44,890 bases of DNA, taken from contig MGPH01000060.1 in NCBI GenBank assembly GCA_001797365.1, positions 1 to 44,890 on the forward strand, in the 5' to 3' direction. Below the pieces are notes generated by a model, which was not told the origin of the DNA, searched no databases, and saw only the letters and a list, made by a program, of their open reading frames with translations. Below, in pieces: positions 9,773 through 38,934 of the stretch. How positions within the stretch are numbered: the first letter of the stretch is position 1; each line of letters begins with the position of its first letter. Both the position numbers and the translations under genes were made by a program. Source of the DNA: Deltaproteobacteria bacterium GWA2_45_12 (GTDB lineage: Bacteria; UBA10199).

Positions 9773-11215
9773 CTAGCTGACTACCGTTTTCAAAAAAGCC
9801 TTCACCAACAAATAGACGCTCAAGAACTTTTCCTTTAGTCCCAAGGGGGCCTTTGTTATTAAATGCCCTTCCCGATACACAGCCACCGGTTTTTCCAAAA
9901 CATGGATGTCAGCAAAGGGATCACCCAAAACAACAACCATATCCGCTTTGCGCCCCACCTGAATGGAACCTGCCTGGTTTTCAATTCCCAAAAAACGGGC
10001 GGCATTTTGGGTCAACATGTTTAAAACATCCTTGTTTGAAAGCCCGGCCTTTTTTAATTCCCTTATCTCTTCAAACGAATTGAATGCTGTATTAAAACAA
10101 AAAGGGGCATCAGTCCCAAAAGCAAAAGGAATGCCGGCTTCTTTCCACGCCTGAATGTTCTTCTGCAAGATACGGTGCTTTTGTTGGGCAAGATTCTTTT
10201 TGATCCCCTCTTCATCAACTAAAGAGGAAGGAAAAGAATCGCCCGAGTTTTTGTAATCGTTTAAATAAAGCTGCCACTGATCCCACTGTTTTTTAGAAAC
10301 TTGATCCCTCCATCCGTACATTTGATCCAAATCATTTTCAGGAACATCCCATGCGTTTTTCCAAACCCACACTGTGGGAATCACCGGCATGTTTTTTTGG
10401 GCCATGGCATTCAAGGTTTTTTCATCCAAAAGCTCATGGCTTCCATGAAGGATGCCATCCGCATTTGAACCAAGAGCCAAGGCATACCCCTGACGTGTCA
10501 AAGCGTGGGCAAAAAATTTTTTACCTTGATGATGAACTTGATCGATGAAACTTTTTAAGTTTTCTTCTGAATAAAAAGGAAGTTCCTTTCCCCCAAAGCT
10601 TACTTCCTGCATCCCCATTTTAATATAATCCACCTGCCATCGTTTCAAATCATCTAAAAGCCGGGGGTCATTGATAAAACGCACAGCCCCCACTTTCTTT
10701 GCTTCGCTAGGAATCCAGTTTTCCGGATACCCTCCGGGAATAGTCACAATGGGACCGGCAATCAAAAGCCGTGGGCCAAGATCCACCCTTTTTGAAAATA
10801 ATGTTTTATAAGAAACGACTAGATCGGGCCAACTGCCCATATCAGCGACTGTCGTAAATCCGGATTGTAAAACTTGCCGGGCATTTGTCAGCGGCGTGGT
10901 GGGAACAAAACCTTTCCCGGGTTTGCATGAAGGAGGGTTAAGCAAATGGATATGGGCATTAATCAATCCAGGGATAAGAACCCCTGATTGGTAATGGACA
11001 ACAGGGTCGGTTGGTAAAGCCGGAAGGTTTTGAGCAATGACATCAATGATACCCTGGGAATTTACATGAATGGAAACTGTTTGAACCTGGGCTGAAACCC
11101 CATCCCAAACAGGCATCGGGGCCATCCAGAATGAAGTTAAAGTTTTAGGTGAGGAACAGGATGATAAAAGTCCAATTACTATTAATAATAATGTGGACCT
11201 AAATGAAGGGTGCAT
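9773..11215 (-). CDS. lipoprotein amidohydrolase (imidazolonepropionase-like)
   Basis: This 480-residue protein starts with a lipoprotein signal (LLSSC, Cys20), so it is predicted to be tethered to a membrane, facing the periplasm. The amidohydrolase metal site is complete: HIH (His88, His90), Lys199 in YIKM as likely carboxylated bridge, His237, His257 and Asp369 in FGTDAPF. The C-terminal IQVGRKADMVVV is also typical of the superfamily. Relatives hydrolyse cyclic amides or peptides such as Xaa-Pro dipeptides; the substrate is unknown. It lies 36 bases behind rpoD on the same strand, and its ATG lies inside a copy of a palindromic half-repeat. Confidence 0.9.
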   Translation of the reverse strand: MHPSFRSTLLLIVIGLLSSCSSPKTLTSFWMAPMPVWDGVSAQVQTVSIHVNSQGIIDVIAQNLPALPTDPVVHYQSGVLIPGLINAHIHLLNPPSCKPGKGFVPTTPLTNARQVLQSGFTTVADMGSWPDLVVSYKTLFSKRVDLGPRLLIAGPIVTIPGGYPENWIPSEAKKVGAVRFINDPRLLDDLKRWQVDYIKMGMQEVSFGGKELPFYSEENLKSFIDQVHHQGKKFFAHALTRQGYALALGSNADGILHGSHELLDEKTLNAMAQKNMPVIPTVWVWKNAWDVPENDLDQMYGWRDQVSKKQWDQWQLYLNDYKNSGDSFPSSLVDEEGIKKNLAQQKHRILQKNIQAWKEAGIPFAFGTDAPFCFNTAFNSFEEIRELKKAGLSNKDVLNMLTQNAARFLGIENQAGSIQVGRKADMVVVLGDPFADIHVLEKPVAVYREGHLITKAPLGLKEKFLSVYLLVKAFLKTVVS

Positions 11216-11238
11216 GGTTCGAGAGCCTCACCATGTCC
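11213..11238 (-). repeat. family A half-repeat covering a start codon
   Basis: On the minus strand this reads GGACATGGTGAG, then CTCTCGAACCATG. It is the right half of the compound palindrome seen complete at 28053 and 14904. The final ATG is the amidohydrolase start, and GGTGAGG within it could act as its ribosome binding site. Confidence 0.75.
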
Positions 11239-14903: not shown

Positions 14904-15012
14904 CATGGTTCGACGAAGCTCACCATGTCCAATACAGGACACCCTGCCTGCCCGCCTCTGGAGGGAGCTCCGTCCCGCATACGGGATCCCGCTACGCGGT
15001 GATCGAAGGGTC
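14904..15012 (-). repeat. family A compound palindromic repeat
   Basis: On the minus strand, a left half runs from GACCCTTCGATC to CAGGGTGTCC and contains inner palindromes (CCGCGTAGCGG, CCCGTATGCGGG). After a 6-base spacer comes the right half, GGACATGGTGAGC to GTCGAACCATG (14930-14904). It fills most of the space upstream of dnaG. An inner stretch (CCCGCCTCTGGAGGG) resembles the palindrome next to the tRNA. Confidence 0.8.
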
Positions 15013-25190: not shown

Positions 25191-25334
25191 GGACATGCCC
25201 CGTCCCGCAAACGGGACCCCGCTACGCGGTGGTCGAACCATGATTCTTGATATAAATGAGTAAATATTGTCCAAGAATGACCCTTCGATCACCGCGTAGC
25301 GGGACCCCGTATGCGGGGCAAGCTCAGGGTGTCC
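25191..25334. repeat. large inverted repeat made of two family A halves
   Basis: GGACATG at 25191 to TCGAACCATG at 25242 is a right-half element, and GACCCTTCGATC at 25279 to CAGGGTGTCC at 25334 is a left-half element. They share an inverted core (CCGCTACGCGGTG / CACCGCGTAGCGG) and flanking arms ATTCTTG / CAAGAAT. The order is the opposite of the usual left-right arrangement. It lies downstream of the ATPase gene and could fold into a long hairpin. Confidence 0.8.
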
Positions 25335-26497: not shown

Positions 26498-26545
26498 GTA
26501 AGGGCGTTTTGTGCCAAAGGCATCCCTTCGGGACAAAACACCCCT
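26498..26545. repeat. family C palindrome, copy 1, upstream of mpl
   Basis: GTAAGGGCGTTTTGTGCC, a short centre, then CGGGACAAAACACCCC form a hairpin with near-complementary arms. The copy at 28155-28204 is the same element in inverse orientation. This copy ends 8 bases before the mpl ATG. Confidence 0.78.
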
Positions 26546-26552
26546 CCCCGAC

Positions 26553-28085
26553 ATGACCTATATTCCTCAAAACATTCATCACATTCACCTCACCGCCATT
26601 TGCGGCACGGGCATGGGTTCGCTTGCGGGGCTGCTTGTAAAACGTGGTTTTAAGGTAACCGGGTCGGACCAAAATACTTACCCCCCCATGAGCACTCAGC
26701 TTGAAAATTTGGGAATCAAACTTTTTACTGGTTACAAACCTGAAAATTTAAACCCCAAACCCGATTTAGTCATTGTGGGGAATGCCATTCCCAAAACAAA
26801 TCCTGAAGCCGAAGAGATCTTACGCCAAAATATCCCCTACACCTCGATGGCGGCGGCGCTTTCGCATTTTTTCATCACAGGCAAAGAATCGATTGTTATT
26901 TCAGGAACTCATGGAAAAACAACAACAACGGCATTACTTTCTCATTTGTTGGTTGAGCTAAGTGCGGGACCTTCTTATTTGATTGGAGGCATTTTGCAGG
27001 AAGATCTTCCCAATCATGCGTGGAATGAAAAAGGAAAGTATTTTGTGGTCGAAGGCGATGAATATGACACGGCTTTTTTCGATAAGGGTCCCAAGTTTTG
27101 GCACTATCAACCCCATCACACCATCATCACCTCCCTTGAATTCGATCATGCCGATATTTATCGCGACCTCGATCATTTGTGTTCTTCATTTGAAAAACTG
27201 ATTGAAAAAATAAATCCGAAGGGATTTCTGCTTTACTGCAATCATTATCCGCGGCTTTGTGAGCTGGTTAAAAAGTCAAATGTAAAAACAGAATCGTATG
27301 GCTTAAAGGAAGGAAATTGGAGCGCAAGTAACTTCCAAAGCGAGCAACCCTTCGACGATGCTTCGACTGGCTCAGCACATCGGCTCAGGGTGTCCGATTC
27401 TGGACATGGTAAGCCCCGTCGAACCATTCAACCATACTCTACTTTCACTGTCCTCTATCGAGGTCAACGTGAGGGATTGCTCCATTCCCCCCTCATGGGA
27501 GACCATAATATCCAAAATGTCCTAGCCGCTTACGCCCTCCTTCGTCATTTGGGTTTTGGCCATCAAAAAATTTCAGAAGCTCTCCAAAGTTTTAAGGGAG
27601 TCAAACGCCGCCAGGAAATACGGGGCACAATCAACAATATTATTGTCATGGATGATTTCGCCCACCACCCCACGGCTGTGCGCGAAACCATTGCAGCCGT
27701 TAAAAAACGTTTTCCCAAGCACACACTCTGGGCCATCTTTGAGCCGCGCTCCAACTCATCTAAACGAAATATTTTTCAGAAAGATTATGGGGAATGCTTT
27801 ACGGGAGCAGATCAAGTCATTATGGCCGATGTTTTCATGCCCGAAAAAGTAAAAGACGGACACGTTTTGGATGTCGATACCGTCGTAAAAGATGTAAACA
27901 GCCAGGGCATCAAAGCCCAACACATTTCAGGAGTGGAAAACATTGTGACCCATCTTGCCTTGCACACCAAACCTGACTCCATTGTTTTGATCATGAGTAA
28001 CGGCGGTTTTGGGGGCATTCACGAAAAATTGCTTAAAGCGTTATTGCAGAGTGACCCTTCGAGAGCCTCAGGGTGTCCCAACTAA
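26553..28085 (+). CDS. mpl: UDP-MurNAc:murein tripeptide ligase Mpl, with repeat-encoded segments
   Basis: This 510-residue Mur-ligase-fold enzyme re-attaches L-Ala-gamma-D-Glu-mDAP tripeptide to UDP-MurNAc in the cytoplasm. The N-terminal motif ICGTGMGSLAG replaces the usual ICGTFMG, the ATP loop is SGTHGKTTTT, and GDEYDTAFFDKGPKF and GDHNIQNVLAAYALL are typical of Mpl. I chose the ATG at 26553 because a GTG at 26511 lies inside a palindromic repeat. E. coli Mpl has 457 residues. Part of the excess is a polar insert (around PFDDASTGSAHRLRVSDSG) encoded by a family A repeat. The last residues (SDPSRASGCPN) and the stop codon come from a second family A repeat. The core looks intact. Confidence 0.93.
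   Translation: MTYIPQNIHHIHLTAICGTGMGSLAGLLVKRGFKVTGSDQNTYPPMSTQLENLGIKLFTGYKPENLNPKPDLVIVGNAIPKTNPEAEEILRQNIPYTSMAAALSHFFITGKESIVISGTHGKTTTTALLSHLLVELSAGPSYLIGGILQEDLPNHAWNEKGKYFVVEGDEYDTAFFDKGPKFWHYQPHHTIITSLEFDHADIYRDLDHLCSSFEKLIEKINPKGFLLYCNHYPRLCELVKKSNVKTESYGLKEGNWSASNFQSEQPFDDASTGSAHRLRVSDSGHGKPRRTIQPYSTFTVLYRGQREGLLHSPLMGDHNIQNVLAAYALLRHLGFGHQKISEALQSFKGVKRRQEIRGTINNIIVMDDFAHHPTAVRETIAAVKKRFPKHTLWAIFEPRSNSSKRNIFQKDYGECFTGADQVIMADVFMPEKVKDGHVLDVDTVVKDVNSQGIKAQHISGVENIVTHLALHTKPDSIVLIMSNGGFGGIHEKLLKALLQSDPSRASGCPN
27347..27428 (+). repeat. family A compound repeat inserted in frame in mpl
   Basis: The left half runs from ACCCTTCGACG to CAGGGTGTCC (27347-27395), the spacer is GATTCT, and the right half runs from GGACATGGT to GTCGAACCATT (27402-27428). 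It matches the intergenic copies at 28053 and 14904. The mpl frame is kept open through the whole element. Confidence 0.8.
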
Positions 28086-28119
28086 GCTATAGTGGACATG
28101 GTGAGGTTCTCGAACCATG
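28053..28119 (+). repeat. family A compound repeat at the mpl stop
   Basis: The left half runs from GACCCTTCGAGAG to CAGGGTGTCC (28053-28078). The 15-base spacer carries the mpl stop TAA at 28083-28085. The right half runs from GGACATGGTGAG to CTCGAACCATG (28094-28119). This is the cleanest copy of the family in the window. Confidence 0.85.
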
Positions 28120-28154: not shown

Positions 28155-28204
28155 GTAGGAGCGTATCGTCCCGAAGGGATGCCTTTGACACAATACGCCC
28201 TTAC
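28155..28204. repeat. family C palindrome, copy 2, downstream of mpl
   Basis: This is the reverse-oriented match to 26498-26545: GTAGGAGCGTATCGTCCCGA, then AGGGATGCCTTTG, then ACACAATACGCCCTTAC. The central 17 bases are nearly identical in both copies. Together they bracket mpl as an inverted pair. Confidence 0.78.
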
Positions 28205-34973: not shown

Positions 34974-35040
34974 CTGGTCCCTGAGCGGAGTCGAAGGGCT
35001 GGCCACCTCGACTCCGCTCGGTGACCAGCCAACGCCCCTA
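34974..35040. repeat. family E palindrome that ends uvrC
   Basis: CTGGTCCCTGAGCGGAGTCG and its inverse CGACTCCGCTCGGTGACCAG form long arms around a short loop, followed by CCAACGCCCCTA. On the minus strand the last three bases are TAG, the stop codon of uvrC. It is related to the repeat at 38846-38934. Confidence 0.75.
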
Positions 35041-38785: not shown

Positions 38786-38845
38786 GAAAGTAAATCTAAC
38801 AAAGAGGGTAAAAACAACAAGGAGGAATTAAGAGAAATCAAGGGA

Positions 38846-38934
38846 GCGGCATTTCGACTCCGCTCAATGACCGCTAAAAAATGCTCCCCGAATGGAGTGG
38901 TCCCCGAGCGGAGTCGAGGGGTCGAGGGGCGGCT
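38846..38934. repeat. family E palindromic repeats upstream of uvrB
   Basis: The segment contains TTTCGACTCCGCTCAATGAC and the inverse-type CCCCGAGCGGAGTCGAGGGG, plus smaller inverted words. It fills the space between the phosphatidyltransferase stop and the uvrB leader. It shares the CGACTCCGCTC core with 34974-35040. Confidence 0.7.

Follow-up and report, generated by a model that had tools for sequence, protein, structure and literature searches.

The GTAG and CGTC REPs are short repeats that form heterodimers, supply stop codons to genes and include in-frame copies coding for 20-30 residues (Di Nocera et al. 2013, PMC3733652); the mobilising activity of the CGTC REPs is reported as unknown, with no linked transposase (PMC3733652). 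The Rickettsia palindromic elements RPE-1 to RPE-7 lie in frame in housekeeping genes, at solvent-exposed places and at orthologous sites, with different elements found close together (PMC3767692). Prokaryotic MITEs and other small mobile sequences are described as non-autonomous and located both between and within genes (PMC10969869, PMC2229807).

In this article, we analyze a repeat found in a stretch of 44,890 nucleotides (referred to as the window), which is contig C60 of a genome of 2.46 Mb in 68 contigs. The repeat resembles the GTAG and CGTC REPs (PMC3733652) in its short tagged hairpins, which are arranged as inverted pairs and frequently join units of unlike stem into heterodimers. 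Like them, it occupies mainly intergenic positions and the vicinity of 3' ends, provides stop codons and has some copies within genes; as with the CGTC REPs, which lack a linked transposase, no RAYT transposase was found linked to it. It differs from them in carrying extra palindromes in loops and spacers, in the tag and tail described below, and in its host, which belongs to an uncultured group. With the Rickettsia palindromic elements (PMC3767692) it shares in-frame entry into housekeeping genes at exposed places and orthologous sites, and the proximity of different elements to one another, but its sequence and host are different and its coding copies are rare, whereas RPE-1 to RPE-3 often occur in genes. 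It is like the MITEs (PMC10969869, PMC2229807) in being a non-autonomous repeat present inside and outside genes and unlike them in that a constant target-site duplication is absent around 29 dimers of its family.

We conclude that a segment of the mpl gene is very probably an inserted palindromic repeat of REP type, one of many dispersed and non-autonomous copies, composed of inverted hairpins with inward GGAC tags and two kinds of stem. The phenomenon of in-frame palindromic repeats is already known; the family, the host group and the observation in thiD appear to be new. With this case, palindromic repeats inserted in frame are documented in an uncultured group and for a REP-type family with a tag outside the two described superfamilies.

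The repeat element inside mpl

The product of mpl is UDP-N-acetylmuramate:L-alanyl-gamma-D-glutamyl-meso-diaminopimelate ligase, an enzyme of cell-wall recycling. It matches NCBIfam TIGR01081 (E 3.3e-113, slightly below the cut-off) and the Mur ligase domains of Pfam, and its best structural match is the solved Mpl 3hn7. The gene and the element have the following parts:

26553..28085, forward strand: mpl coding sequence, 510 aa, frame intact
27345..27428, forward strand: in-frame insertion in mpl, 84 nt or 28 residues, delimited by homologue alignment and excision arithmetic
27347-27427, forward strand: repeat element, 81 nt, in frame
27347..27395, forward strand: left hairpin unit, ACCCTTCGAC...CTCAGGGTGTCC, CCC/GGG stem, tag GTCC
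27356..27382, forward strand: third hairpin, CGATGCTTCGACTGGCTCAGCACATCG, inside the left unit's loop
27396..27401, forward strand: spacer between the tags, GATTCT
27402..27427, forward strand: right hairpin unit, GGACATGGTAAGCCCCGTCGAACCAT, TGG/CCA stem, tag GGAC

The original prediction of an in-frame element of about 82 bases inside mpl was borne out by an element of 81 nt that has many copies in the genome and is absent from homologues. A copy of CAACC on either side (27345-27349 and 27429-27433) leaves the exact ends of the insertion uncertain by at most 5 nt. Removal of exactly 84 nt between the CAACC copies leaves an open frame and a protein of homologue length, and restores NFQSEQPYSTFTVLY. 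The third, nested hairpin is also present in an intergenic copy on contig C37. Since the assembly is a draft of 68 contigs with many repeat copies, a copy might have been misjoined into mpl, but we regard such an artefact as highly improbable: the frame is open, the insertion is an exact multiple of three, excision gives the homologue length, the sequences on both sides of the element belong to a single Mpl protein, and two separate genomes share a comparable insertion in thiD. As a separate observation, mpl is bracketed by a 48-nt inverted repeat (88%) at 26498-26545 and 28157-28204, which is a different palindrome.

Comparison with homologues and predicted structure

Between fixed anchors, the window Mpl has 35 residues, compared to 7 in 26 of 29 Mpl proteins taken from relatives and from genomes farther away, and to 16, 13 and 6 in the other three. 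When 80 further homologues are added, giving 110 proteins with the window Mpl included, the segment measures 65 residues in the window Mpl; its most common length is 38, and the second-longest segment, at 51, itself contains an insert. The 28 residues have no counterpart in the 109 homologues, which supports the proposal that the insertion followed divergence from them; the comparison genomes are none closer than the same order, and a near-identical empty site is not among them. These results confirmed that a DNA repeat accounts for the extra 28 residues absent in homologues. The solved Mpl 3hn7 has ~60 residues at the segment (counted by eye from the alignment) without the repeat; therefore, length alone is not unique, and the place tolerates variation in length.

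The AlphaFold model of Mpl (38 sequences) has a mean pLDDT of 90.4, with values <50 only at residues 267-287 and the last four, and its fold agrees with solved Mpl and MurC. In the model, the insert forms a loop that joins strand 256-264 to strand 295-302. The 28-residue insert is thus predicted to be a disordered surface loop that leaves the enzyme core intact. Alignments and the model also support the expectation that the element encodes a polar stretch close to where the middle and C-terminal domains meet. Most likely, the 28 residues have no function in Mpl and represent a tolerated scar, although their neutrality is something we infer.

Anatomy and folding of the repeat family

The unit consensus is GGAC-A[TGG or CCC]T-GAGC-loop-GTCGA-A[CCA or GGG]T. 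A dimer consists of one CCC-stem and one TGG-stem unit with tags inward, and its GTCC and GGAC tags are able to pair with each other. The spacer sequence varies from dimer to dimer, and the loops or spacers of other copies contain other palindromes, for example GTAAGGGCAATTCATGAATTGCCCTTAC. A relaxed scan found the TGG/CCA stem 54 times, the CCC/GGG stem 35 times and the cross-combination of these two stems not once; the GGAC tag is carried by 84 scanned units with the two main stems.

Over 30 distinct units, 99.6% of cells are paired, four stem pairs have changes on both sides, and the covariation score is reached by no shuffle. Judged from these aligned units, compensatory stem changes support the hairpin fold of the family. 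The mpl copy on its own gains no extra stability over shuffled sequences, either as DNA or as RNA (z -1.46 and -0.84). Because this fold does not exceed shuffles, the palindromic nature of the copy, as originally proposed, rests on covariation in the family, which does carry the palindrome, and does not follow from the mpl copy taken alone.

At 34974-35028 and 38840-38926, the window has related hairpins whose core is GAGCGGAGTCGA and whose tag is of TGGTC type; they are apparently the same hairpin with yet another tag. The search for RNA families in the window matched one tRNA and nothing else.

Copies in the window and in the genome

Besides the element in mpl, copies in the window include the following:

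11214..11238, reverse strand: single TGG/CCA unit with an amidohydrolase gene on one side and a sigma-70 gene on the other
14905..15012, reverse strand: dimer between genes, whose left unit encloses another palindrome
25197..25334, forward strand: repeat copy between genes, with nested palindromes in both halves
28054..28118, forward strand: second complete dimer, whose left unit codes for the Mpl C-terminus and whose spacer provides the stop

Two copies had initially been described as intergenic. The one at 14905-15012 does lie between genes, but the other (28053-28119) overlaps the 3' end of mpl. The 28054-28118 dimer starts within the gene, its left unit codes for residues SDPSRASGCPN, and the stop codon TAA (28083-28085) comes from its spacer; homologous Mpl proteins stop about ten residues before the end of the window Mpl. 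This dimer folds better than shuffles (z -3.36). A parallel is found on contig C11, where the ScpB gene terminates as ...ESDPST* inside another repeat copy.

Copies were gathered by pattern matching, by which the counts are possibly too low. The proposed genome-wide count gave 44 matches to the right-half pattern and 33 to the left-half pattern, nearly all outside genes, with 0 matches to the reversed-pattern controls; complete dimers, in which both halves are separated by a spacer of 4-34 bases, number 23. The length of the Mpl segment is variable, as it might be if ordinary loop expansion, with no mobile repeat, had produced a resemblance by chance; yet the halves, their order, their orientation and the tags match dozens of copies where the reversed controls match none, and these copy counts refute such an explanation, which we consider to have next to no probability. 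Among 85 unit copies inspected, the clearly internal, in-frame ones are confined to the mpl dimer and the pair in thiD; the remainder occupy leaders, the ends of genes or intergenic DNA. Few long open reading frames run across other copies, and most of these merely lengthen a leader or a tail or are located opposite a genuine gene. In this genome, it is exceptional for the repeat to insert into coding sequence.

Several further observations concern particular copies in this genome. Five loci (L001, L003, L005, L008, L108) contain a dimer subfamily with long outer inverted arms, GGTACCTCTAAAAACT...AGTTTTTAGAGGTACC, which resembles a small transposon with terminal repeats, and four (L047, L062, L098, L107) contain a further group in which the outer arms end near TTGACAAAGTCCCAATTC / GAATTGGGACTTTGTCAACA. 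Two dimers lie in the atp operon (L096 on C62, at ~846 and 1501-1546), upstream of atpH-like and atpA-like genes that were named by eye. The short contig C33 (L041) codes for a PIN/TRAM-like membrane protein that, judged by eye, seems foreign to the bin and is possibly a contamination.

Family assignment and distribution

The repeat has the short hairpin units, the many dispersed copies mostly outside genes and the inverted dimers of units with different stems that characterize REPs. Its tag is GGAC, unlike the GTAG of the GTAG-tagged REPs and the terminal CGTC, TGTC or CCTC of the CGTC-tagged REPs, and in place of the unpaired tail near CCA of the latter, the bases 3' of the hairpin are mostly G/C-A-A/C. 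The repeat is best filed as REP-type, with a tag outside the described GTAG and CGTC superfamilies. The likeness to the Rickettsia elements, put forward in the original prediction, is fair with respect to behaviour: insertions are in frame and leave protein genes (mpl, thiD) unbroken. Membership among the RPEs does not follow from this: the anatomy is that of REP dimers located mostly between genes, and coding insertion is not a frequent site, being limited among the 85 units to the dimer in mpl and the pair in thiD. At the protein level, Mpl had no RPE-type family match in NCBIfam or Pfam. A literature search for the repeat core sequences found none, an absence that is no proof of novelty.

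Among 46 genomes of the phylum, which are the identical set to those of the class, dimers number 23 in this genome, 6 in G033, 3 in G038 and 1 each in G010 and G007. A dimer match in G028 lacked the flanking unit sequence and was set aside as a seemingly chance match.

A shared in-frame dimer in thiD

The window dimer family is found in frame at one site of thiD in G033 (contig C8) and G038 (contig C82), two genera of one family; the thiD product matches Pfam Phos_pyr_kin. The site is 23 and 31 residues long in G033 and G038, respectively, versus 3-4 residues in 26 of 27 other homologues and 10 in one. The thiD gene of G038 has an additional 24-nt in-frame insert in one loop. One old insertion common to G033 and G038 is the favoured reading of these sequences because the position is shared and the spacer is partly shared.

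In this one orthologous pair, 14 of the 15 same-residue codons in the arms are identical, compared to 49% in the flanks (bootstrap p 1.5e-5), and the dimer spacer has diverged between the two genomes. The likeness of the arms could result from hairpin selection, from gene conversion or from a later independent insertion. The frozen arms suggest that it is the nucleic acid, not the peptide, that is maintained or homogenised, and the shared site offers a direct test of which of the two intragenic repeats are kept for. We tentatively propose, as an idea that may well prove wrong, that the arms of the family are under nucleic-acid constraint or active homogenisation even in protein genes, so that copies lying in frame would stay alive as repeats from genus to genus instead of decaying as scars. 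Another reading is that selection keeps the arms for a role of the hairpin in mRNA or DNA, such as translation pausing, mRNA stability or a binding site for a chromosomal protein. The thiD codons with their diverged spacer and the family-wide stem covariation would fit such a role, but the former come from a single pair of orthologs whose arms gene conversion or later insertion would also keep alike, and the mpl copy, with its extra hairpin, is not unusually stable; we consider this role unlikely.

Recurrent insertions in Mpl of relatives

Further inserts were found in the same Mpl segment of relatives, which was examined because of the mpl finding, and the recurrence hence gives no unbiased frequency. 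The Mpl of G011 carries WIPGQARDD, coded by a CGTC-type REP (CGTCATCCC...GGGATCCA on the other strand); the pattern of this REP has 150 matches in that genome and 0 in controls, and the match at C3:76485-76511 is the mpl copy. The Mpl of G004 carries VIPAPARGGSASGGKAGIHS, coded by a nested form of CGTC-type REP with 88 genome matches and 0 in controls. REP-type insertion in one segment of Mpl is thus observed in three genomes and by two families, which adds a case of unrelated REP families striking the same segment of one enzyme. An in-frame perfect palindrome, GGCGAGGCCCTGCCTCGCC, in the same segment of mpl in G003 occurs as a single copy in its genome and was therefore not counted as a repeat family.

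The frame kept in the window Mpl and the other inserts in the same segment of two relatives might be taken to mean that the inserted peptide has been recruited for Mpl function, for example regulation or partner binding. The inserts share no sequence, though, the segment is predicted to be disordered and most homologues are empty there, and we find recruitment of the peptide very unlikely.

Mobilisation

For the preferred reading, insertion of a dispersed REP-type repeat, some mobilising activity on the hairpins would have put a copy into mpl, at a landing site that would already have been variable in length. The copy would then have survived by being in frame and stop-free in that frame, in a flexible loop between two strands. 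Mobilisation by a RAYT was rejected on the absence of any repeat unit from the flanks of 32 Y1-transposase loci (3 in this genome and 29 sampled from the class). The 5-nt CAACC pair of mpl was considered as a target-site duplication and likewise rejected, as it has no pattern in other dimers. One Y1-transposase gene of this genome (L042, C24:30466-30627) contains repeated in-frame RAGHD-type segments, and the gene is flanked by GTAGGGGC...GCCCCTAC palindromes.
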